DNA of 64,000 nt from Ceratorhiza oryzae-sativae. Lineage: Eukaryota; Basidiomycota; Agaricomycetes; Cantharellales; Ceratobasidiaceae. This document shows, piece after piece, positions 8,499 through 25,033 of the stretch. The stretch covers positions 1,240,001 to 1,304,000 of the forward strand of contig JARWMV010000241.1 in the NCBI GenBank assembly GCA_030998015.1. The letters are read 5' to 3'. The notes under the pieces were generated by a model that made no database searches, was not told the DNA's origin, and was given only the letters and a program-made list of their open reading frames with translations. Made by a program: the position numbers and the translations under genes. Position 1 is the first letter of the stretch; each line of letters opens with the position of its first letter.

Positions 8499-8963
8499 TG
8501 TTATGGGTCAGGGTACACTTGAATATCTAGAGCTTAAGCAAATGTAGATATGTTAGTATACACTAATTGTACTCAATACTTCTTAGACTAGAGTAAGAAG
8601 GCTCAAAGTAGTTGCAATGCAATCAAGTAACACTCAAGGTAGTCTTAATCTTTCACAGTGTAAACTGACTAATTTATAGGTATAAAGAGCAGGACTACTA
8701 TGGTCAGGTTCCCTTAGATATCTTAAATGTAGTTCAGCCCTAGTCACTTGGACTAACTGGTACTAATCTTAATACTAGACTTAAGTGATAGCTTATAGGA
8801 TAGATGGTGGGCTGCCTAATGCATGTACTTCCTCAGCTACAGGTACTTAGATTTCATCTAATAGCTGGTACTTAATGTCATGCTCAATCAGGCAATATTG
8901 TATCCTTATATAACTCTGTATATAAGATACAACAACTCAGACAGTATATAACTAATATGGTAC

Positions 8964-8969
8964 TTTATT
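8964..8969 (-). other. poly-A signal in left LTR arm
   Basis: AATAAA on the minus strand, about 125 nt downstream of the TATA box in the same arm and at the same place as in the right arm. Confidence 0.5.
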
Positions 8970-9094
8970 CCTCAGTACTAGTTATATAAGAAATCACACA
9001 CAGACAAGAGAAATAGAAAGAGAAAAAGAAAACCAATAACCAGTCTGGGTTGAGTAGAGGAGTGAAGGTGGTCTGGAAGGGCCTCAGAGGAGGT

Positions 9095-9103
9095 CCTTTT
9101 ATA
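9095..9103 (-). promoter_or_regulatory. TATA box in left LTR arm
   Basis: TATAAAAGG on the minus strand, conserved at the equivalent place in the right arm (24436-24444). It points away from the LINE fragment, outward toward position 8499. Confidence 0.55.
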
Positions 9104-9251
9104 CCCTGAGGAGGGCGTTCCAGAGCCAAATAGATGCATGCATGCCAGTGCAATCATCAAAAGAGGGTACTGCTATACTTGGGGTACACCCTAGCCCAGT
9201 ATAGGATAAGAGAGTAAAGACAGGGTGTGGATCGAAGGCATTGATGCATCT

Positions 9252-9807
9252 TGTTATGACCTGTCAAACAGACATAACAAAATAACCAAATATTTTTACA
9301 GATTTATGGCATTTTTTCCTAAGCAGAACAAGCCATAAACAAGGTCACATGACCTTGGCACTTAACTGGCGCTTACAGTGGTTACCCTGAACTTGCTCCA
9401 GCATTTCTCTACTTGTTACTTGGAGCAAGGAGTGAGTTGTCACATGATCTTGGTGCTTACAGCAGGATCACATGACCTCAGTGCTTACCCCTCAGACCTT
9501 GCACAGCTCTATAAGATTTGGAGCTGCACAAACTTAAGACAAACAATTACCTAACCCATAGTACTGTACATAACCTGCACCTACTGCAGATTGTGCTTAG
9601 ATAATACATCCACAGCCACTGCAGCCACAGGCATATATAAGAAGGATAAAGCAAGACTGGATGCCTCAGCTTGCTTTATCTTGTCAACCACCATAGACCA
9701 TAGCAAACACTGTAACTAGAACACTCAATACATACCACATAGCACCAAACCGTCAATGCAGCCACTACTTAAGTGCTTCACAAGGGAGCATCCAGAGGGT
9801 CATGACA
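9252..9807 (+). mobile_element. solo LTR of the chromovirus family
   Basis: A 556-bp sequence starting TGTTATGACC and ending CATGACA, clearly related to the LTRs at 11390-12154 and 21240-21909. It is flanked by a perfect 5-bp target duplication CATCT (9247-9251 and 9808-9812). The unoccupied site survives in the inverted copy of the surrounding arm near 24290, where a single CATCT equivalent joins the two flanks. It carries one copy of the internal repeat that is present three times in the 5' LTR and twice in the 3' LTR. A solo LTR normally results from recombination between the two LTRs of a full element. Confidence 0.93.
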
Positions 9808-10367
9808 CATCTGAGACCTGCTATTGGCTTGTAGATCATATTATCATAGTATATACATGTCATGAATGGAGGCTACATCTCAGTGAGTCATAAGGTGAGT
9901 CAGAGAAGCTTCTGGATCAATTTGGGAAGCTCTCCTGACTCACTGGAGTCATTAGATCTTGATTGATGGTCCAGTAAGATTCTAATGAGCTTTGGGCCAT
10001 TCCGGTGCGAGGATCTGGTGGATTGCAACAATCTTCAGGCAGCAAATACTGCCAAAGATTAGCTATCGATAGAGCATAAGATCACCTTGATAGTGTAAGC
10101 GGTTGCCAAGATATGGGCAGTGCAATGTTGTAATCAATATCTCCTGATAAGAGGAAATATCATAACCTCTATATCTCTCTGAGTTCTTAAGATAAAATCA
10201 CGATAAAATATGCGTTGGAAAGAGGAGATTTTTTACTATTTAATGGAATACAAATAGTACAATTTCAGACACATACAAATTCATTTAATTTGAAGAAAAA
10301 TTACAGAGGCATCTTGAGGTTGGCAGAGCAGACTAAAATAATAGAAAAATGTTAGTGATCCATAACA

Positions 10368-11389
10368 ACTGCACCTCTTTGCCACAGCCCCCTTTGTCAG
10401 GCTCCACCATCATCCACCACCTGGCAGACATGTCCCACCTGGATGCCAAGTTTACCATACCCTATCTAGCTGCACCCTGGGAACAACCCCACCCCTGGCC
10501 CACCTGTTTGCACATGTGCTTCCCTGCACCTGATGCATCACACAAGGAACACAAGGTCTATCTCTGTCTGGTGAAAGACCGTCTCAGCTCAGCTCAGTCC
10601 AATGGCACAATCTTGGCCTTCAGTGATGGTTCTAGGTGTGTTGTCTGCAGTCAGCACAAGGTTGGCAGTGGATTCTCTATACAATGGTTCAGGGACAAGG
10701 TTGCCACTGGCATGCTTAGCCTGGGTCACCACTCTGACATCTTCAACACTGAAATGATGGGACTTGCCATTGCAATGAAATGTGCATCCTCATTTGTCAA
10801 CTGCCCCTCACACAACACACCTGTTTGCCATGTCCTATTCTCATCAGACAACCCAGCTGCAGTCCAGATGATCACCAACCTGTCACCTCACACTGCACAG
10901 GCTGCCTCAATCGCCTTCAGGAACTGCATTGATGACCTTCTGCAGTTGCACCCTGACCTCTCAATCACAGTCCAATGGGTCAAAGGTCATGCTAGGATTG
11001 CAGGCAACAAGTGCACTGACACCCTTGCTCTGAAGGCCTCCTCTCTCATGCCCACACCCATCTTCAACTGCACCATATCCTGGGCTAAGGCAAGGGCCAA
11101 GACTAGGGCTGTCCACACTTGGGGACACAGGTGGAACTCCAAACCTCACTCTGACCAAGTGCATCTGCCCACCTGTCCACCAGCCTGGAAGCTGCATGCC
11201 TTCCACCAAAGCATTAATCTCAACAGAGACAGGCACTGCTGCCTCATACAGGTCATCCTTGGACACAGTTTCTTTGGGGAGTACTATGCCTGCTTCAACC
11301 TCACCAAGGGTACCCAAAACATGGCTGAGTGCCAATGTGATCACCAGACCAAGCAGACAATTGCACATGTGATTCAGGAGTGTCTGTTG
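10368..11389 (+). pseudogene. LINE-type RNase H region, 5' part, interrupted
   Basis: The frame (ATG at 10349, inside the LTR arm) encodes the RNase H domain typical of the C-terminal end of Tad-like non-LTR retrotransposon reverse transcriptases. FSDGS near codon 93 gives the first catalytic Asp, NTEMMGL the Glu and FSSDNPAA the next Asp. These are followed by WVKGHARIAGN and the family's C-terminal tract GHSFFGEYYACF. The endonuclease and polymerase parts are missing; the left LTR arm abuts the point of truncation. The frame stops because the chromovirus inserted after position 11389. Its remaining end is at 21910-22073. Transcription from the LTR arm would run the other way, so expression is doubtful. 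The gene itself is a degenerate relic. Confidence 0.85.
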
Positions 11390-12154
11390 TGTTATGACCT
11401 GTCAAATGGACATAACAGAGTAACTGAATATTTTTACAGATTTATGGCAATTTTTCCTAAGTGGAACAAGCCATAAACAAGGTCATGTGACCCTGGCGCT
11501 TAATTGGCACTTATGGTGGTTACCCTGAACTTGCTCCAGCATTTCTCCCATTGTTACTTGGAGCAAGGAGCAAGTTGTCACATGATCTTGGTGCTTAACT
11601 GGCACTTACAGTGGTTACCCTGAACTCACTCCAGCATTTCTCTCCCTTGTTACTTGGAGTGAGGAGCAAGTTGTCACGTGATCTTGGCGCTTACAGCAGG
11701 ATCATGTGACCTCAGCACTTACAGTGGTTACCCTGAACTTGCTCCAGCATTTCTCTCCCTTGTTACTTGGAGTGAGGAGTGAGTTGTCATGTGATCTTGG
11801 TGCTTACAACAGGATCACATGACCTTAGCACTTACCCCTTGGACCTTGTGCAGCTCTATAAGATTTGGAGCTGCACAAACTTAAGATAAACAATTACCTA
11901 ACCCATAGTACTGTATATAACCTGTACCTACTGTGGATTGTGCTTAGATAATACATCCACAGCCACTGCAGCCACAGGTGTATATAAGAAGGATAGAGCA
12001 AGACTGGATGCCTCAGCTTGCTTTATCTTGTCAACCACCATAGACCATAGCAAACACTGTAACTAGAACACTCAATACATACTGCCTAACACCAAACTGT
12101 CAACATAGCCACTACTTAAGTGCTTTGCAAGGAAGCATCCAGAGGGTCACAACA
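11390..12154 (+). repeat. 5' LTR of the chromovirus (765 bp)
   Basis: Begins TGTTATGACC and ends CACAACA. An internal unit of about 100 bp, recognised by TACCCTGAAC and TCCAGCATTTCTC, occurs three times (near 11521, 11620 and 11728). The same unit occurs twice in the 3' LTR and once in the solo LTR at 9252-9807. Confidence 0.93.
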
Positions 12155-12310
12155 TTATAAAGCAAGCTCTTAACTTAACTAGTGGCAAACATAAGTATAC
12201 TACACAGATACTAAGGGCTGAGTACATGAGAAACCAGCTAACTCCTGTGATACATAAGAGAACACAAGGAAACTATGTCACAGAGACCACAAACTTGATC
12301 TCAAAGCAGA

Positions 12311-14110
12311 GTGGCAAATAGTAGACTACAATCACCCAAACCAATTACTCCCATAGAGGCTGAAGGTAACCCAGACAAGACCCTCCAAGGAATGCCAGGG
12401 GGGTTGCCACAAAACCCACAACCAGTGGCTCAACCTGACCCCACTTGGGCCCCCATCCTGGGAGGGCAAATAGGGGGAATACCACTCTGCAGCCCTCAAC
12501 TGCCAACTCTCCTGATAAATCCAGACCCAGAAGATATCTCAAATCCAGAGAGGGATGAGGTAGAAGATATGACCTGAACCATATATGAACAAGGCATGGC
12601 CTTGGCAGAAGAGGCAAGGACACAACCCCAGCCAGGTTCTGGAGCCATAACCACTGCCAACCCTATTCACACCATTGCCACCACCATCAGGGCAGGGCTC
12701 AAGGAACTTAGAGACAATAACCATAGGGAACTAGAAAAGGCAATCACAAGTATAAATCAGTGTCAAATGTCACTAACATGGCAAGAAGGAAATGTGGACT
12801 GGATGGTAAGATCAATGGAAACATCCAACAAAAATGACCTCTATGTGGCAAAGAACCAGGACAACCTAAAAGTGGAAATGGGGAACCTGACAAAAGAATT
12901 AAAGGACATCTCCATGGAAATAAACTGGGTATTGGGAACACAAGAGTGAAAGCTTGAAAGCTTAGAGAAGAAAACTGAAAACACAGGGGAGATCCTGACT
13001 GCACTAGAACAATGGGTAACCAATCTAGGAAATGAGCTCCAGAAAACAACAGAAGCAGGAAGGCCAAGGGAAAGGACAGAAGAGACCAGGGGAAGAACTA
13101 GGGTGGTCATAGGAAGCCCCTCATGATCCCCCTCAGCCTCCCCAGTATGAACACCCTTTCTGGGAAGAACCTTCCAGGCTGAGTCCACAATAAGACCCTG
13201 AACAGAACCTCCATCCCAAGCAAACCAACCTACCCTTGCTGCAAACCACACTCCTAAGGAGGTGCAACTAGGAAGACCCAGCAATTTTAACAGGAAAAAG
13301 GGGAAGGAAGCAGAGAACTTCATAATTGGCATAGAACTTTTCTTTGCTGAGTACAACAAATCAGCCTTTGACAACTGAAAAAAGATATCTGCTGTGTTAA
13401 TGAATATGGAGGACAGGGAAGCAGCAAACTGGGCACAACCTTACTGCTGGAAACTACTAGCAGGCGAATGCACAGGGATCCTTGCATCCTGGAAGGATTT
13501 CAGGAAGGGATTCCTGGATGCCTTTAATGACCCAGTCATAAAGGAAAAGACCATCCAGAAGCTAAGGAAGTTAACACAAACCAAGAGTGCATTGGATTAT
13601 GCTACCCAATTCTGGATCCTGATCCAAGAGGTAGACTGGAACCAGGAGGCCCTCAAGGACCAATTCAGGGAAGGGTTAAAACCTGAAGTATGACAAGAGA
13701 TCTTGAGGATTGAAGTACTGGCAAATGAGGCTGAAGGACCATCATATACCCTAGATCAACTAATTGACTTTGCCTGCAAAATGGATGACATGCAGTTTGC
13801 AAACCAGAAAATGAATGCAAGGACCAGCAACTCATCAAATTCAACCTGGGCACCAGCAAGGTACAAACAAGGGGGAAACAAGCCTTCAGGGACCAGCAGC
13901 AAACAGGGGAATACCCAAACTAACAATATGGTAAGAATACCAAACAGTGAAACAGACAGGTGAAGGGAAGAAGGACTTTGTATCAAATGTGGTAAATCAG
14001 GGCATGTCCTGAAGGACTGCCAGGGCCAGTGGACCTATGACAAAGCTAAGATACAAGTGAGGGCCAGCAGGCAAGTTGAAGAAGAAAGCAACTCCAAGTC
14101 GGAAAACTAA
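12311..14110 (+). pseudogene. gag of the chromovirus, broken
   Basis: Nucleocapsid/capsid polyprotein remnant spread over several frames. The part at 13394-13693 has the retrotransposon-gag pattern (NWAQPYCWKLL ... SWKDFRKGFLDAFND ... QFREGLKPEV). A complete CCHC zinc knuckle CIKCGKSGHVLKDC is encoded at 13979-14020. Stops at 12575-12577, 13691-13693 and 13961-13963 are all TGA and are read as CGA-to-TGA changes. At least one further frame change lies between 12949 and 13394. The N-terminal part (12311-12577) is Pro-rich. In a working element gag would package the RNA; this copy cannot be translated whole. Confidence 0.85.
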
Positions 14111-14127
14111 TTGGTCCTACCACTTCC

Positions 14128-17100
14128 ATGTTGGAGGACCCCAATATAACCCCTACCACAGATGTATGTTACCTCAATAAATCTAGTAATCAATCAATAA
14201 TATACACTATGGTAGAGGGAATCATGGAACCAGCAAGGACACTGATTGACTCAGGATCTTCAACCAACTTCATCGATAAGGCCTATTCAAGGGAAAAGGG
14301 GATCCAAACCACTCCCCTCAAACACAAGAAATCAATTGTGGCCATCAACAGAAATGAAATCAAGGATGCCATAGAAGAAAGGGCAGAACTAAATATTGAA
14401 GTGGAAGGGAAGACTCTGAAATGCTCCCTTTATGTGATGACCCTAGGCAACACAGACATAGTCCTAGGGAAAGAATGGCTTGAGGAAGCAGAACCTATCA
14501 TAGATTGGAAAGACCTTACCATCTCATACCCAGATGAAATCAAGGCAAGGGCAGCCAGAGAAAGCCTATAAATCCCAGAAGAATTTAGGGATTTTGAAGA
14601 CCTGTTTGGGGAAGAAGGTTTCTGAGAACTTCCACCCCACCAAGGTAGAGATGTCTTGCCAGCATGCTGGCACACTGGCATCAAGGGAAACTGAATTGAT
14701 TTATCAGCTGATGCAATTCAGTTTCCCTTGATGCCAGCATGCCAGTGTGCTGGCAAGACATCTCTACACCAAGGAAATCTGGACTTCAAAATGGACCTGA
14801 TTGAGGGAGCAGAGCTGCCAAAGCCTGCAAAAAGGTACAGTATGTTGCTAGCAGAAACAAAGGCACTCAGGGAGTACCTAGAGGAGGAACTGGGAAATGG
14901 AAAGATAAGGCCCAGCCAGTCAGTTGTAGCTGCACCCTGTTTCTATGTAAACAAAGCAGATGGAGGGCTTAGGCTGGTAGTTGACTACTGTAAGATGAAT
15001 GACATCACCAAGCCAGACAGGTTTCTGCTTCCAATTCAAATAGAACTGATTGAGAGACTGAAGGACACAACCATCTATTCAAAAATGGATGTTTGATGGG
15101 GGTTCAACAATATCAGGGTAAAAGAGGGAGATGAATGGAAAACAGCTTTCAGGACAGGAGAAGGCCAGTTTGAATGCTTGGTCATGCCATTTGGAGTAAA
15201 GGAAGGACCAAGGACCTTTACAAGGTTCATGATGGAAAAGTTCCATGACATAATAGATGATTACATGGTAATCTACATGGACAATGTACTAGTGTTTTCC
15301 AGAAACAGGGAAGAACACATACAACATGTCAGGGAGGTGCTAAGAAGAATGAGGGAAAACCACCTCTTTCTCAAACCACACAAGTGCCAGTTCTTTGTGA
15401 AGGAGGTAAGCTTCATTGGAATTGTCATATCCCCAGAAGGGATATTGATGGAGAAGGAAAAGGTAAAGGCAGTCCTGGAATGGCCAGAACCTAAAACAGT
15501 AAAAGAAGTCCAAGCATTCCTAGGCTTTGTGGGGTTCTATAGAAGGTGGATAGAGAAGTTTAGCACCTTAGCCAAACCCCTCACAGATCTCACTCAAAAA
15601 GATGTCAAATTTCTGTGGGAGAGAAAACAACAAGAAGCATTTGAAGCTATTAAAGAAGCAGTAGCAAGAGAACCAGTCTTAATCCACCCAAACCCAAACA
15701 AGCCATACATACTGGAAACAGACACCTCAGGAGTGGCCATGGGGGCAGTACTAAGCCAAAAGGGTGATGACAACTGATTGCATCCAATTGCCTTCCTATT
15801 GAAGAGCTTCACCCCACCAGAGAAAAATTATGACACCTACAACAAGGAATTGCTTGCAATTGTTAGGTCCTTAGAGCACTGGAGGCTATACCTAGAAGGG
15901 ACAGAAGATCCTATTGTGATATACACTGACCATAGGAACCTCCAGTACTGGCAAAATGCCCAGATGTGGAATAGAAGGCATGCCAGATGGTATCTCACTC
16001 TGGCACCCTTCAATTTTCAGATTGTGTATAGACCAGGGAAACTCTCACAGAAGCCAGATGCCCTTTCCAGGAGGAGTGACCATGGGGACACCCCTATGGA
16101 ACCACAGATCATGATTCCAGAAGAAAGGTTCATAGGTTTCAAGGCAGAGGTACAGGGAAACTACTTCTGGGAGGAGCTTAAAGAGGCTCAGGAAGAAGAT
16201 GAATCTATCAGATCCTTAAGGCTGAGTGTGGCAAATAAAGAACAACTACCTCCCTCAGTACAGAAGGAATTTAGATGGTATGAAATGAAGGAGGGCCTAT
16301 TAAGGTATGACAATAGGCTCTACATCCCAGATGACAAGGATTTGAGGTTGAGCCTCCTTGAGGAGTGCCATGATGCTCCTGTGGCAGGTCATCAGGGACA
16401 AGCCCAAACACTAGAATTACTATCAAGGGATTACTACTGGCCAGGAATGAAGGCCCAAGTAAACCGATATGTGGAATCTTGTGAAACATGTCAAAGGAGC
16501 AAAGGACACAAACAAGGCGCTACCCTGAAGCCCTTACCAATCCTGTGGAAACCATGGGCAGATGTTGCATACAATTTCATTGTCAAATTACCTGCCTCAA
16601 AAGGGTACAACAGCATCTTGACAGTTGTAGATCACTTCTCCTGGCAGGCCCATTTTGTACCATGTATGGAGAGCACCAATGCAGAAGAACTGGCAGAAAT
16701 ATTCATAAGGGAAGTATGGAGACATCACAGGACACCAGAAACCACTGTCTCAGACTGAGGGCCAACCTTTAACAGCCAATTCCTAAGGGCCCTATACAAG
16801 GGAATTGGGACAAAGCCCAGATTCTCCACCACCTTCCATCCAGAAACAGATGGACTGTCAGAAAGAACAAATTAATGGGTAGAAGAACCTTCTGCAATTA
16901 TAGACAAGATGATTGGGTAAAATCATTACCCATTGCTGAATTCTGCCATAACAACCATGTAAACACTACAACAGGACAAACCCTGTTTGAAATGGTATAT
17001 TGAAAAAACCCAAGATGGGTTGTCTGAGAGGGAGAAGAACAGTCTGAGGCACCTGCTGCAGACAGCATGCATAATCAAATGGAAAAGGTGTGGGATGAGG

Positions 17101-17663
17101 CAAGAGCCTCAATGGAATCACACCAACAAATGGAAAAGAAAGGGAAGGAATTCAAGGTAGGAGATAAGGTTTGGCTGCTCCTAACAAACCTCTCATCCAA
17201 GAGACCCTCCAAGAAATTGGACAACCAAAAAGGGGGCCCTTTTGAAATCACAGAGAAGATCTTGTCCCATGTGTATTGCCTGGACTTACCTAAAACCATA
17301 TGTGTACACAATGTATTCCATGTGAATCTCCTCTTGCCATTCACAGAAGATAAAGACTTCTGAAGAAGGCAGGCCAAACCACCACCAATCATAACAGAAG
17401 AAGGAGAGGAGGAGTATGAGGTGGACCACATTGCAAATTATGAATGGCAGAATGGCAAGCTGTTTTACCAAATCAGATGGAAGGGCTATGACCCAATAGA
17501 AGTCACAATGGAATGTGCCAGCAAGTTTGCTGACATGAAAGAGGTTCTAAATGACTTGCAAAGGTGCTTACCAGATGCACCAATGCCAGTCAAGATGAGT
17601 CAATCCTCAGATGACTTGAAAGGCAGACCAAAGAGAACCAAACAAGGATCTAGAAAGCTTTAA
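14128..17663 (+). pseudogene. pol of the chromovirus (PR-RT-RH-IN-chromodomain), broken
   Basis: Protease has an intact LIDSGSS motif (Asp codon 14248-14250). A MITE splits the frame at 14646-14766. The RT contains GGLRLVVDYCKMN and a catalytic box reading YMDN instead of YMDD (15283-15285). RNase H spans about 15700-16070. The integrase has the HHCC finger (about 16366-16500), but its first catalytic Asp is Asn in YNFI (16573-16575). The SD before the stop at 16756 and GLSERTN give the other two catalytic positions. A chromodomain closes the frame (about 17410-17530, Y-IRWKGYD). TGA stops at 15094, 15775 and 16756 fall exactly where related elements have Arg (DVRWG, NRLHP, SDRGP). Three more defects follow 16870. 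The element cannot move on its own. Confidence 0.92.
14646..14766. mobile_element. 121-bp hairpin MITE inside pol, 8-bp target duplication
   Basis: The insert starts TAGAGATGTCTTGCCAGCA and ends with its inverted complement. Its arms of about 55 bp pair over most of their length around a short central loop near 14700. It is flanked by perfect copies of CACCAAGG (14638-14645 and 14767-14774). Excising the insert and one duplication restores the pol frame (LPPHQGNLDF). The 8-bp duplication fits the hAT superfamily. The insert has no coding capacity, so it must have been moved by a transposase encoded elsewhere. Confidence 0.93.
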
Positions 17664-17750
17664 AATGAGCCATCCAGGATACCCAAGAAAGGCCAGAGCC
17701 TGCTCTACCACCTCACTTGCACCACAATACACCTGCAAAACCTCAAAAAC

Positions 17751-18572
17751 ATGCCTTTTATCACTCACCCAGTTGCACATCCCAACTGTTACATACCACT
17801 TATCAAAAATCAGGTGGCCCCACTTTGGCAGCCACCTACCACTAGGTGGCCAGCACCCTACCCTGGCAGGGAAAATCATCCTAAACTAGGGATGTACTGC
17901 TCTAGCATGGAAGATGCCCAGAGGTATGCCAAGCAACTGTTGCCAGGGGCTAACCTAGTGTACATCCCAAAGAAGTTAAGGGATGAAAGGAACTGGATTG
18001 ACAATGACAAGTACCTGGATCCCAGGTTAGGGGTCCTGATATGGCATGGAAGCCAGAAGCCAACAACAAGAAACACCTTGCTAAGAACACCAATGTATGT
18101 CATTGACAATATTGTGGGACCAACAGTTGATGTGGTGGCCAAGGCAGCAAGACAACAGAGGAGGGCTGCAGGCCAAATGGCAGACAGGGGGGACTGGGAG
18201 GTGGAGTGCCAGGCAAAGGCGTTGTTGGAAGAGTGGAAGTTGACACCAGCCACACCATATGTGGGACTGCTTGAAGCAACTACCACTGATGAAATGTTTA
18301 CTGCTATCAGGACAAAGCAGGCAAACATGAGCAACTTCCAAAATTGGGTGAAGGTGCACCCAAACAAAAACACCAATTATGACACAGACATGACAAGCCT
18401 TACATCAAGCCTAGAATCACTGGTCATGGCTGAGGAAGAAGCAAAGCCAGTGATAAAGGAACCCACCCTGGACCCAGCCATTGAAGGAGCCAAACAGGAC
18501 TGGGACCAGTGGGAAAACAAGCTTGTTGAAGCTCTGGAAGAGGTGCCACTGTTGGAACCAGCCCCCATATGA
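17751..18572 (+). CDS. chromovirus cargo gene A, unknown
   Basis: An open frame of 273 codons between the chromodomain and the antisense gene B. I do not recognise the protein. It has a Pro/Trp-rich start (about residues 15-40) and a central segment with YCSSMEDAQRYAKQLLPG and LVYIPKKLRDERNW. Then comes a stretch of Ala/Gln/Arg, and the last 60 residues are acidic (VMAEEEAKPVIKEPTLDPA). No membrane segment or catalytic motif is evident. Unlike gag and pol around it, this frame has no internal stop despite equally poor CpG content. That suggests either few CGA codons or late acquisition. The true start is uncertain; the first ATG of the frame is used. It could be a captured host gene or an extra structural protein. 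Confidence 0.5.
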   Translation: MPFITHPVAHPNCYIPLIKNQVAPLWQPPTTRWPAPYPGRENHPKLGMYCSSMEDAQRYAKQLLPGANLVYIPKKLRDERNWIDNDKYLDPRLGVLIWHGSQKPTTRNTLLRTPMYVIDNIVGPTVDVVAKAARQQRRAAGQMADRGDWEVECQAKALLEEWKLTPATPYVGLLEATTTDEMFTAIRTKQANMSNFQNWVKVHPNKNTNYDTDMTSLTSSLESLVMAEEEAKPVIKEPTLDPAIEGAKQDWDQWENKLVEALEEVPLLEPAPI

Positions 18573-18646
18573 CCACTTTGCCCCTCACAGATTTTTTCTC
18601 AAATGTATAAGAATTTTTATATATCAAACCTAATACATTTTACTCT

Positions 18647-19179
18647 CTATTTATGTTTGCCCTTGAGGGGCTGGGTATAGGGCTTCTTGCCCTTCTTATC
18701 CTTCTTATCAGACTGAACAACTGACTGGGTGGTGGGCTGCAACCAAGGGGCCTCCCCCCCTGGGAAGTCAGCCATGTAGTTCTGGAAACACCCAGAACTG
18801 GATGCCAAAAAGGGCAAAGCCTCATCAAACAAGGGAGCAGAGCCCTCCTTGAAGAACTTGGCAAGAGCAGCCTGGTGAACCTGCTCCTCAAAGGACTTGT
18901 AGTCCTGATCAACAAGCACCCAAACATGCTCAAGGGTGGCCTCATGGGCCCAACCATCAAGGAGTATGTGCTCTTCTACAGAGCAAGTAAGTAACAAGAG
19001 ACCAATGAAGAAGAAGCACACGTACCTGGCACCCCAAGGAAGAACCAGTCCCCAACACCTTCATAGAAGTCCTCAAGGGAGGCATTGCACATGGCATTGC
19101 AATAGGCACAGTACTCCCCCTCAGGGAGAGACCAGCAGGTGCAGTCAAGGGGATTGTAGTTGAGGGTAATAACATGCAT
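18647..19179 (-). CDS. chromovirus cargo gene B, antisense and spliced, unknown
   Basis: Runs against the element. Exon 1 is 19179-19026 and exon 2 is 18975-18647, with a 50-nt intron opening GTACGT and closing TAG. The joined frame encodes 160 residues. Exon 1 is cysteine-rich (CTCW ... YCAYCNAMCN), which could bind metal or form disulfides. Exon 2 has an aromatic/acidic core (HVWVLVDQDYKSFEEQ) and a lysine-rich tail with DKKDKKGKKP. No known domain is recognised. A spliced antisense gene cannot have passed through the element's own sense RNA with its intron removed, so it fits acquisition as DNA or a gene read from its own promoter. The longer unspliced frames on this strand are explained by the two exons. 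Confidence 0.5.
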
Positions 19180-19912
19180 AGTAAAGACAGGATGAGGAAG
19201 GGAAAACAACAAAACCACAAACATTAAAAAATCACAGTGCAACATGATAACTTGCACAAACATCAAAACAAAGTCTGGTCAGGTGACACAAACAGACATG
19301 TGACCATCTGCCAGAAAACAAACAACAAAGCATGGGAATCACATGACCTAGCCTAGTCACATGAATATATGCTATCCCCTAACTACTGGAGGGGTCAGAG
19401 AGGGGGCACCAACTGAAGATGGAGGAGCAGAGGCCCTGAGCATAGCAAGGAATAAGGCCAACACAGGGGAACACAGGAAGGGCACCCCTTGGAGATGCAT
19501 CATAACAGCACAAGCCTACATCAGGAAACCATGTGACCACAACAGCCAGAGAAGGTATATCTAGGGGATGCCCTTGGGGGTAAAAGGGGCTATCATCTCA
19601 TGCCCTCCCCACAAGATGCATCTACCTCTAAAAAAACCAACAATGCTAAGTGAAGATGGCTCAAACATGGGAACACCCCAGCCAAACTAATCAAGTGCAG
19701 GGTGGAGGTCAGCATCACCATTGCTGGCGCCCTCAGGATCAAGCCAAGCCCCCTCACCTGCTTCTACATGGCCTACGCCAACAGATCACAGGTCCAAAGA
19801 GCTGACCAAAACCGTGCTGGCCCCCTGATTCTGCATCCAGACCAGGGCAGTGCTGCTGACCTGATCAAAGCTATGCAATCAGCCCTCAAGTGGGCTTGTC
19901 ACCCAATACAAG

Positions 19913-20869
19913 GTGTTCTGCTGCCATTGGCCCAATCACTGGGCAACTTTAGCTGTGGTCAAACAGCACAACCTGGAGGAGCTGAACTACAACCCAACCC
20001 AGCCCCTGCATGTCCATGCCCTCTCCATCAGTCAGGAACAGAAGGGCTGGTGGAACACCCAGAACATGGGGTTCTGGGACTTTGAGGGGCAACACCCCAA
20101 CATTCTGCCCAAGGACCTCAAGGATGGGCCAGGAGGCAACCTGGCAAGGGACGCCTTCAACTATCTCTGGAAGGACATCAGAGCTAACAGCAAGGAGATA
20201 GAGGATTTGATGGCAGGGGATCTGACCTTGGAAAGGTTAGAGGAGATCTTGGTGAAGGGAAAGGGCAGAAAACAGTCTAGGATGGAGGCAGACTTGGAGG
20301 ATGGGACAGAGATTGTTGCCTCAGCAACAAAACAGGAGTACTACCAGGTGTTCAAGCACCTCTGCCCCCTCCAGATGGTGATGATGTGGAACTTGGTACA
20401 AGCATATGCCAAATACACATACAAGGAAGACCAGGGTTGCATGCCTGCAATCCCTGTGGAGTTAGAGGTCCTGGAAGACCAGGAGCACATTGACTGAGCA
20501 GACAGATGGTTTGCTGAGGAAGTTGAGAAGAGAGGAAGAGGGGTGTGCCATTGCATCCTGGTGATAGAAGGAGAGACTGGAATGGGGAAAATGGTGTATG
20601 CATGATCCAAGGGCTGCCACAGCCAGATGTGCAATGTGTGGAACATGGGGAACTTGTCAGAAGACACCAACATTTGGATCCTGGACAACATGGTCCAGTC
20701 AAACAGGAAGTACTTGCTCAAGGCCCTGAGCCAGTACAAGGTGGACTTCACAGGCAGGTACACACATGTGAAATTGATGAAGGTATGGCTGACAGTTATT
20801 CTGGGTAATAGCTGGTCAGCAATCATGAAGTGTTGGTCAGACATAGAGGGGGAAGAGGGGGACTTATGA
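19913..20869 (+). pseudogene. CRESS-DNA Rep-like gene (HUH endonuclease plus SF3 helicase), decayed
   Basis: The first frame (about 19913-20497) shows LHVHALS (two His codons at 20009 and 20015, the HUH pair), then FEGQHPNILP, then FNYLWKD (Tyr codon 20162-20164, the YxxK nucleophile motif). This is the order and spacing of geminivirus/genomovirus-type replication initiators. After one stop, a helicase part follows. It has a Walker A remnant GETGMGKM (20570-20593), a Walker B remnant WILDNM (about 20675-20692), and a hydrophobic segment ending VILGNS where motif C is expected. The changes GKT to GKM, LDD to LDN and a TGA after VYA are each single CpG transitions. Motif I is not clear. I infer a fossil of a circular ssDNA virus Rep carried by the retrotransposon. 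It is not functional. Confidence 0.6.
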
Positions 20870-21069
20870 GTATCAAAAAACATAGAATGGGTGTACTCAG
20901 GAGGAAAACCATTCTTTGTATTCCCTTAGAATAATTTACTGTATTGTACAACTTCTGCTATGCCCATCCAAACAGTTGGGGCATCCTGAGAAGAAGCAGA
21001 TGACTCCTCACCCTGGAATAACCTCCACAACAAAGAAAAGAAAAACAATCTCATGTAACATAGAGGTTA

Positions 21070-21151
21070 AAGGGTCTAGCCTGACTCAGCCTCACCTCAT
21101 TGAACAATACTGGATCAGCCAAAAGGTCATTGGTTCAAGTCCAGTGCCCTT
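21070..21151 (+). other. tRNA-like sequence near the 3' LTR
   Basis: Contains a good B-box/T-arm (ATTGG TTCAAGT CCAGT, about 21129-21145), a 3' GCCCTT that can pair with the 5' AAGGG, and TCAxxxCCAAAAGGTC resembling the anticodon-stem side of a Cys-type tRNA. The D-arm is distorted by extra bases and no clean cloverleaf forms. It is probably a decayed tRNA gene or tRNA-derived repeat rather than an active gene. Confidence 0.3.
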
Positions 21152-21225
21152 AACCTCCTTGGTGCATGAGATTCCTTTTGCATAAAGGATCAAAATCATG
21201 TCTTGAGGTCCCCCAAGACATGTCC

Positions 21226-21239
21226 AAAAGGGGGGATAA
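21226..21239 (+). other. polypurine tract of the chromovirus
   Basis: AAAAGGGGGGATAA immediately before the 3' LTR, the expected primer site for plus-strand DNA synthesis. A small hairpin (ATGTCTTG ... CAAGACAT) lies just upstream at about 21199-21222. Confidence 0.75.
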
Positions 21240-21909
21240 TGTTATGACCTGTCAAATGGACATAACAGAGTAACCAAATATTTTTACAGATTTATGGCAA
21301 TTTTTCCTAAGTGGAACAAGCCATAAACAAGGTCATGTGACCCCAGCACTTAATCAGCACTTACAGTGGTTACCCTGAACTTGCTCCAGCATTTCTCTCC
21401 ATTGTTACTTAGAGCAAGGAGCAAGTTGTCACATGATCTTGGTGCTTACAGCAGGATCATGTGACCTCAGCACTTACAGTGGTTACCCTGAACTTGCTCC
21501 AGCTTTTCCCTCCCTTGTTACTTGGAGTGAGGAGTGAGTTGTCATGTGATCTTGGTGCTTACAACAGGATCATGTGACCTTAGCACTTACCCCTTGGACC
21601 TCATGTGGCTCTATAAGATTTGGAGCTGCACAAACTTAAGATAAACAATTACCTAACCCATAGTACTGTATATAACCTGTACCTACTGTGGATTGTGCTT
21701 AGATAATACATCCACAGCCACTGCAGCCACAGGTGTATATAAGAAGGATAGAGCAAGACTGGACACCTCAGCTTGCTTTATCTCATCAACCACCATAGAC
21801 CATAGCAAACACTGTAACTAGAACACTCAATACATACTGCCTAACACCAAACTGTCAATGTAGCCACTACTTAAGTGCTTTGCAAGGAAGCATCCAGAGG
21901 GTCACAACA
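21240..21909 (+). repeat. 3' LTR of the chromovirus (670 bp)
   Basis: Begins TGTTATGACC and ends CACAACA, aligning with 11390-12154. It is 95 bp shorter because it holds two instead of three copies of the internal repeat. Scattered differences from the 5' LTR are mostly C/T and G/A changes. Confidence 0.93.
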
Positions 21910-23729: not shown

Positions 23730-24435
23730 TGTTATGGATCACTAACATTTTTCTATTATTTTAGTCTGCTCTGCCAACCTCAAGTGATGCCTCTGTAATT
23801 AATTTGCAAAATACTTGAATTTGTATGCACTCCAAATTGTACTATTTTCCATTCCATTGAATAGTACAAATTTCCTGCTTTCCAACACATATTTTATCAA
23901 GTTTTTACAATAAGATCTCAGAGAGATACAGAGGTTGCAATATTTCCTCTTATCAGGAGAAATTGATTGCAACATTGCACTGCTTATATCTTGGCAACAG
24001 CTTAGGCTATCAAAGCGATCTTATGCTCTATCGATAGCTAGTCTTCGGCGGTATCTGCTGCCCGAAGATCATTGCGATCCTCCAGATCCTCATGCCAGGG
24101 TGGTCTGAAGATCATTAGAATCTTACTGGACCATCAATCAAGATCTAATGACTCCAGTGAGTCAGGAGAGCCTTCCAAATTGATCCAGAAGCTTCTCTGA
24201 CTCACTTTATGACTCACTGAGATGTAGCCTCCATTCATTACATTTATATACTATGATAATATGATCTACAAGCCAATAGCAGGTCTCAGATGCATCAATG
24301 CCTTTGATCCACACCCTGTCTTTACTCTCTCATCCTATACTGGGCTAGGGTGTACCCCAAGTATAGCAGTACCCTCTTTTGATGATCACACTGGCATGCA
24401 TGCATCTATTTGGCTCTGGAATGCCCTCCTCAGGG

Positions 24436-24444
24436 TATAAAAGG
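24436..24444 (+). promoter_or_regulatory. TATA box in right LTR arm
   Basis: TATAAAAGG, conserved in the inverted left arm. An AATAAA follows about 120 nt downstream, giving the short R region expected of an LTR. Confidence 0.55.
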
Positions 24445-24562
24445 ACCTCCTCTGAGGCCCTTCCAGACCACCTCCTCTACTCAACCCAGACTGGTTATTG
24501 GTTTCTTTTCTCTTTCTATTTCTCTTGCCTGTGTGTGATTTCTTATATAACTAGTACTGAGG

Positions 24563-24568
24563 AATAAA
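24563..24568 (+). other. poly-A signal in right LTR arm
   Basis: AATAAA, conserved with the left arm at 8964-8969. Confidence 0.5.
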
Positions 24569-25033
24569 GTACCATATTAGTTATATACTGTCTGAGTTGT
24601 TGTATCTTATATACAGAGATATATAAGGATACAATATTGCCTGATTGAGTGTGACATTGAGTACCAGCTATTAGAGGAAATCTAAGTACCTGTAGCTGTG
24701 GAGGTACACACATTAGGCAGCCCACCATCTATCCTATAAGCTATCACTTAAGCCTAGTATTAAGATTAGTATCAGTTAGTCCAAGCAACTAGGGCTGAAC
24801 TACATTTAAGATATCTAAGGGAACCTGACCATAGTAGTCTTGCTCTTTATACCTATAAATTAGTCAGTTTACACTGTGAAAGATTAAGACTACCTTGAGT
24901 GTTACTTGATTGCATTGCAACTACTTTGAGCCTTCTTACTCTAGTCTAAGAAGTATTGATTATGGTTAGTGTATACTAACATATCTACATTTGCTTAGGC
25001 TCTAGATATCCAAGTGTACCCTGACCTGTAGCA

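Follow-up and report, generated by a model that had tools for sequence, protein, structure and literature searches.

A Rep-like gene as a regular part of a Ty3 retrotransposon family in the fungus Ceratorhiza oryzae-sativae

A 10.5-kb long terminal repeat (LTR) retrotransposon lies at positions 11390-21909 of a 64,000-nucleotide stretch of the basidiomycete Ceratorhiza oryzae-sativae (assembly GCA_030998015.1, contig JARWMV010000241.1, positions 1,240,001 to 1,304,000; hereafter the window), as delimited by comparison of its LTR pair within the window. Between the LTRs its domains follow the Ty3 order of gag, protease, reverse transcriptase (RT), RNase H and integrase, and between its chromodomain and the 3' LTR there are three extra genes: open reading frame 2 (ORF2) on the plus strand, an antisense gene on the minus strand and, again on the plus strand, a gene resembling the replication initiators (Reps) of geminiviruses, of the HUH endonuclease plus superfamily 3 (SF3) helicase type. 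Our analysis revealed that the Ty3 family regularly carries this Rep-like gene, which is not a private late insert. We consider it probable (roughly 0.7), judging from sequence comparison, that a chromodomain Ty3 family took up a geminivirus-like Rep and has retained it, between integrase and 3' LTR, as an accessory gene.

The Rep-like gene of the window copy, identified by motifs, homology and selection, spans 19643-20929 on the plus strand (428 codons and a stop) and is interrupted by six internal in-frame stops. LHVHALS, DFEGQHPNI and FNYLWKD all lie in one open frame (19865-20497); Walker A and Walker B follow it in damaged form, and after them comes ILGNS. A preliminary description of this DNA had proposed a decayed relative of the Reps of circular Rep-encoding single-stranded DNA (CRESS) viruses at 19913-20869, between the chromodomain (17364-17660) and the 3' LTR (21240-21909). 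The motifs and the position were borne out, and the interval covers most of the gene, the real extent of which is longer. The decay holds for the window copy but not for the family, in which many copies are open and appear to be under purifying selection.

The Rep segment is found at many places in the genome. As a DNA query it gave 40 scored matches among 181 candidates, and Rep protein queries gave 98 scored among 245 candidates and, further, 94 rows from 93 scored among 253; the merged list contains 116 rows, two of which are pieces of one copy, leaving at least 115 places. Sixty loci were fetched, comprising 30 of the window type (L001 being the window) and 30 young ones (L034-L063, those with the best 30 protein-query scores). 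The 3' LTR end is reached in all 30 young loci and in 26 of the 30 window-type loci (25 of 29 without the window), the other four (L015, L025, L027 and L028) being cut off or interrupted before it. Other element sequence lies upstream of Rep in 58 of the 60 loci, and the remaining two, L008 and L057, have just the 3' untranslated region (UTR) and LTR beside Rep. A query extending from RT to Rep (28 scored of 427 candidates) recovered full-length colinear copies, some with open Reps. To avoid selecting copies by their Rep, RT alone was also used as a query, which, being taken from the window copy, may miss remote subfamilies (40 scored of 282 candidates, window included). Rep is present downstream of RT in 29 of these 40 copies, window included: 21 are in the Rep lists at a distance of 4.5-5.9 kb, six were recognized by 300-base probes and two by the RT-to-Rep query, one of the latter with the first part of Rep only. 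Three more copies carry other cargo downstream (two by probe and one by the RT-to-Rep query). A clean cargo-less element, with the integrase directly followed by the LTR, was seen in none of the 40 RT-found copies, eight of which cannot tell. The preliminary description had proposed looking for the segment in other copies of the family, and it is there that these searches place it.

The named relatives of the gene are fungal. The open piece 19865-20497 matched five proteins, the three named ones being from Ceratobasidium, and a natural open copy elsewhere in this genome (L002, 454 amino acids stop to stop) gave 45 protein matches at E <= 1. A 14-sequence profile found 61 database relatives at E <= 10 (7995 candidates scored), 40 of them named, all Ceratobasidium, and 21 unnamed; no viral Rep was among them. 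Ceratobasidium sp. AG-Ba, 395 and 428 are three further named strains with full-length relatives; the full-length proteins show the motif order LTW (motif I), LH[VI]HAL, FEGxHPNI, YLWK, GxTGTGKT, W[IV]LDD and ILGNS; some motifs are missing in many database entries, which are partial or misannotated. Each of the 16 intact copies that were fetched contains all seven Rep motifs, and Walker A, Walker B and motif C are situated at 311, 346 and 387 of 429 amino acids.

Matching to Rep or SF3 hidden Markov models, the other check put forward in the preliminary description, gave no such match for the window pieces (nothing near cut-off in Pfam; best PHROGs E 0.09), and across Pfam, NCBIfam and PHROGs nothing exceeded a curated cut-off for these pieces or for single relatives. 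Seven of 26 single relatives matched Gemini_AL1_M (best E 0.001, 19.5 bits against a cut-off of 24, positions 11-106 of 107) and one matched Gemini_AL1 at E 0.23, below the cut-off. Because equally strong unrelated or P-loop matches are as frequent or more so (nSTAND3 in 21, AAA_22 in 16, P53_TAD in 6 and PRMT5_TIM in 6 of the 26), the weak Gemini_AL1_M matches alone are not sufficient. As no single-sequence match passes the cut-off, the Rep claim rests on the motifs, on the weak but full-length Gemini_AL1_M match and on profile-profile comparison, for which the comparator was a set of 10 geminivirus-like Reps of phytoplasma plasmids (from 33 matched plasmid records) rather than viral Reps. 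With 14 family proteins, hhalign gave P 1e-4 over the HUH part alone, and therefore the P-loop does not carry the match. With 28 family proteins, a set that includes unnamed database proteins, it gave P 1.8e-6 and a probability of 90% over 287 columns; motif I, HUH, HPNI, Walker A and Walker B each fell on their counterparts, and motif C was not cleanly aligned. In 100 column shuffles per set the maximum score was 22.8 against the real 41.4 for the 14-protein set and 23.9 against the real 54.0 for the 28-protein set, and the reversed profiles scored 25.1 and 24.1. The phytoplasma pAYWB-I plasmid Rep (L071) matches Gemini_AL1 at 3.7e-20 (72.4 bits) and Gemini_AL1_M at merely 14.8 bits; aligned alone to the 14-sequence family profile, it matched over the helicase part (P 0.0013), with motif C aligned. 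We take the family to be a putative divergent branch of geminivirus-like Reps, and the proposal of a CRESS-type Rep relative in a Ty3 element is thus supported by the motifs of the 16 intact copies and the profile-profile match.

Other searches were negative or weak. Sequence searches of PDB with the Rep family gave no match. In IMG/VR neither the family profile nor the phytoplasma Rep had a relative, and motif-pattern searches there returned 0 and 7 contigs. A tblastn search of plasmids with protein P0017 gave three records at E 9, none a Rep; no phage carrying the phytoplasma Rep was found; a Gemini_AL1 profile search of genomes was silent for the controls as well; and an RNA_helicase family search gave 19 short, weak matches, none at the listed Rep places. 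Helitrons encode a two-tyrosine Rep with a superfamily 1 helicase and have no LTRs; YxxK, the SF3-type motifs and the LTR ends argue against a Helitron here, with no Helitron profile searched alone.

The family shows signs of selection on Rep. An open Rep frame of at least 400 amino acids is found in 16 of the 30 young loci, the full length being about 429. For the 120 pairs of these 16 intact copies the nonsynonymous divergence (dN) was 0.032, the synonymous divergence (dS) 0.242 and dN/dS 0.13, with dN somewhat lowered by the choice of the 16 for open frames and of the 30 young loci as best-scoring. Across the 30 young copies, Rep changes by codon position were 16.4/12.3/54.1 (65% at third positions) against a nearly flat 10.4/13.3/13.5 in the neighbouring intergenic stretch, counts that include L054 and L057, which have foreign sequence in that stretch; by transversions alone the third-position excess of Rep stays (3.7/1.3/10.6). 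These patterns suggest that the gene, which appears to be under purifying selection, is being kept intact. A main force on the family is CpG decay, as the observed/expected CpG ratio is 0.03-0.34 in window-type loci against 0.50-0.79 in young loci (whole 4.2-kb loci, flanks included). Over the window element CpG is nearly gone (0.025), compared with 0.85-1.03 in 11 four-kb window blocks clear of both the element and the repeats on its flanks. In Rhizoctonia solani AG8, mutation has been reported to be CpG-biased (PMC4014442).

Blocks of sequence have been reshuffled between copies. The young copies C1 and C238 differ by transversions at 0-1.0% in RT, the integrase end, ORF2 and the intergenic stretch, but at 3.7% in antisense exon 2, 2.7% in Rep, 19% in the 3' UTR and 3.5% in the LTR. 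By the same measure C1 is like the window copy in the 3' UTR (1.9%), Rep (1.8%) and LTR (1.0%), and differs from it in ORF2 (11.7%) and the intergenic stretch (8.1%). Such a pattern would arise most simply by exchange between RNAs packaged together, as happens in other LTR elements; gene conversion among copies could produce it as well. The types of the Rep 3' half, 3' UTR and LTR are linked in all 30 young copies, and ORF2 types follow loosely. Because physical nearness explains this linkage and Reps carry their specificity in the N-terminal half, the linkage provides no evidence for co-adaptation. As a separate observation, type B LTRs (L035, L038, L059 and others) contain U3 repeats, 100 bp apart in L038, that hold a GC-rich hairpin, GGCGCTTA..TAAGCGCC; this hairpin occurs in 17 of the 30 young copies, exclusively with type B Rep, and was considered as a Rep site.

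The cargo is probably copied via the element RNA, as the block reshuffling resembles template switching, and selection probably acts on the element, since the Rep gene spreads with it. How the gene would serve the element is less certain. With the HUH and YxxK motifs and those of the helicase all conserved, it is predicted to encode an enzyme that nicks and unwinds DNA. Its substrate may be DNA forms of the element, either linear cDNA or LTR circles, from which it would produce more DNA copies or which, alternatively, it would prepare for integration. Such action on linear cDNA or LTR circles is the most likely function we can name, although we put it forward tentatively and at less than even odds; an effect on host silencing or the cell cycle comes next. 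A hybrid replicon, that is, a reverse-transcribing LTR retrotransposon that also multiplies its DNA by a virus-derived Rep, is conceivable but rather doubtful. Its Rep start site would perhaps lie in the LTR or 3' region, in view of the linkage of Rep, UTR and LTR types, for which physical linkage alone suffices.

Several points weigh against the uptake and retention of a Rep by the Ty3 family as proposed here, in addition to the choice of copies that lowers dN. Eight of the 40 RT-found copies are uninformative on cargo: one is at a contig end, one runs into another family copy, and six are seemingly interrupted before the cargo site, with no element match at +2.7 kb and no element sequence at +5.1 kb. 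Rep and RT distances in 13 copies gave a Mantel r of 0.27 (p 0.06) and, with transversions only, 0.00 (p 0.46), so that no common tree is supported; the correlation is weak because RT hardly varies between copies. AlphaFold2 models were of too low confidence to be of use (mean predicted local distance difference test scores 33.4 and 48.7), so that the absence of a Rep from their Foldseek and VIA-align rows carries little weight. Furthermore, no classical CRESS origin was seen, as the CRESS nonanucleotide NANTATTAC occurs neither in the window element nor in the 3' third (from ~18260) of the 30 young copies. The lone NANTATTAC match in the young loci is in the flank of L057, outside the element, and TAATATTA is absent from the first 3700 bases of the 30 young loci.

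Among the alternatives, the one that survives best is that the Rep is kept for an effect on the host. Geminivirus Reps counteract silencing that is based on DNA methylation and drive cells into S phase, and a similar activity might shield the CpG of the element from methylation. The contrast in CpG between window-type and young loci (0.03-0.34 versus 0.50-0.79) and the lack of an origin in the searched element parts are consistent with this, but every one of the 16 intact copies retains the nicking motifs (HUH and YxxK) and all three of the helicase, which is more than a silencing suppressor would be expected to need, and we regard the explanation as unlikely. The Rep could also be a passenger, captured once, useless to the element and merely carried, as might be read from the stops in the matched part of 66 of the 98 scored Rep places (at least one each, the other 32 having none); however, a dN/dS of 0.13, the 65% share of third-position changes and the full-length relatives in the three Ceratobasidium strains make this very improbable. 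The greater divergence of Rep segments than of RT between copies would fit an independently mobile Rep segment that inserted into the Ty3 element, but we give this origin almost no credence, because in 56 of the 60 fetched loci the end point is the LTR end and not a Rep boundary and all 60 have another element part beside Rep. Equally hard to credit are chance motifs without a true Rep, for although no Pfam match of the Rep pieces or relatives lies above cut-off, PDB gave no sequence match and unrelated Pfam families match with like strength, the profile-profile match stands well clear of its shuffled and reversed controls.

The remainder of the window element, which apart from the antisense gene is read on the plus strand, is that of a chromodomain Ty3 element. 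The 5' LTR (11390-12154) has the ends TGTTATGACC...GGGTCACAACA and differs from the 3' LTR at 30 mismatches in 671 aligned positions, 28 of which are transitions, plus 96 gap columns. The likely primer-binding site (12157-12168) is a 12-nt complement of LTR stretch 12015-12026, itself 34 nt downstream of a TATA box (11981); this complementarity suggests self-priming without a tRNA, presumably as in Tf1. A gag piece (13379-13693, Retrotrans_gag E 1.4e-11) is followed by a protease piece (14080-14571, RVP_2 E 5.1e-10), an RT piece with the start of RNase H (15097-15777, RVT_1 E 3e-24), an RNase H and integrase zinc-binding piece (15778-16758, RT_RNaseH and Integrase_H2C2), the integrase C-terminal SH3-like domain (17028-17363, SH3_Tf2-1 E 1.9e-16) and the chromodomain, which in this decayed copy matches Chromo at E 3.9e-5 with 23.9 bits (cut-off 25.1). 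This pol order, SH3_Tf2-1, a chromodomain and self-priming are features of the Tf1/sushi-type chromovirus group. A polypurine tract (21226-21235), recognized from the sequence, adjoins the 3' LTR. Inspection by eye of both ends of the window copy, which is an old one, showed no exact repeat that could be a target site duplication.

The other two cargo genes are ORF2 (17664-18572, 302 amino acids stop to stop) and the antisense gene (18647-19179), which consists of exon 1 (19026-19179), an intron (18976-19025) and exon 2 (18647-18975). The intron is 50 nt long with GT..AG ends, its splice sites having been identified by eye from the sequence, and the antisense orientation would shield it from loss in retrotransposition. 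The window frames of both genes gave no Pfam match, and their PHROGs matches were no better than E 0.07; as PHROGs leaves out the viruses of eukaryotes, this says little on whether either is a capsid gene. In the 30 young copies a weak third-position excess is seen in the ORF2 3' part (16.4/15.4/24.8) and in antisense exon 2 (12.9/16.4/25.0), and by transversions alone that of ORF2 is gone (9.0/7.2/9.4). The view of the whole 3.5-kb cargo as a retroelement-ssDNA (single-stranded DNA) virus chimera is supported for its Rep part; the other two cargo frames of the window gave no Pfam match, and no CRESS-type origin was found in the element parts searched. The 3' UTR contains a structured, cloverleaf-like RNA (21048-21172, folding z -3.9); of the 41 consensus pairs predicted for the 3' UTR, 38 are kept in 9 of 9 sequences from two UTR types, and two show changes in both partners. 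It includes a stretch that we take to resemble a tRNA B box, and neither ARAGORN nor Rfam assigns it a tRNA or Rfam identity.

Several features of the window lie in or around the element. The RT region holds a palindromic insert like a miniature inverted-repeat transposable element (14641-14771), with the 8-bp direct repeat CACCAAGG on both sides, which is missing in copies L032 and L033. Inverted copies of one repeat (8499-10313 and 23786-25033) bracket the element, the left one containing a solo LTR (9252-9808); this repeat also adjoins L008, L010, L015, L016, L024, L027, L042, L046 and L057 and is perhaps a preferred target of the element. Upstream, a 379-amino-acid open frame (10337-11476), RNase H-like by eye, is perhaps a remnant of a non-LTR retrotransposon.

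The ways in which LTR retrotransposons and circular ssDNA viruses are copied are very unlike. A selected Rep inside a Ty3 element would mean that both toolkits can stay combined long enough to be of use, and the element may combine two ways of copying itself. Carriage by Ty3 would give Rep genes a means of spreading in fungal genomes, and it makes testable whether a retroelement uses rolling-circle enzymes on its own DNA.

In the open-access literature, as covered by titles and abstract openings and with subscription papers outside its scope, we recognized no report of a Rep in an LTR retrotransposon, and 'Rep' is absent as a whole word from the main text of a paper on rotifer LTR elements (PMC5408684). 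Compared with Tf1/sushi-type chromoviruses, the window element shares the pol order, SH3_Tf2-1, a chromodomain just below its cut-off and a likely self-priming site, but three additional genes separate its chromodomain from the 3' LTR. The phytoplasma plasmid Reps such as that of pAYWB-I share the motif order and align with the family profile over 287 columns; in contrast, they are plasmid replication genes, and the N-terminal domain of the pAYWB-I protein matches Gemini_AL1 (3.7e-20), whereas the scanned fungal ones stay below cut-off. An orchid Ty3/Gypsy element likewise has a fixed extra open reading frame that adds a new enzyme, an AlkB N6-methyladenosine demethylase, but this is a plant RNA demethylase without a DNA replication function (PMC9289625). 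The nearest published cases are the rotifer Terminons (PMC6431247) and a DNA transposon of Tuber melanosporum (PMC3198968). Terminons, which are giant Penelope-like elements, are also retroelements with a rolling-circle Rep among their accessory genes, and according to the review this Rep may point to circular intermediates; unlike the present family, they are endonuclease-deficient telomeric elements of an animal host and not LTR/Ty3 elements (PMC6431247). In T. melanosporum, 42 geminivirus-like Rep genes or remnants have been described (Liu et al. 2011, PMC3198968), and there too such genes were amplified in a fungal genome within a mobile element. The Tuber element, however, has 37-bp terminal inverted repeats, transposase open reading frames and an interrupted Rep (PMC3198968), whereas the family described here is an LTR retrotransposon with open Reps apparently under selection, at least 115 places in the genome and basidiomycete relatives.
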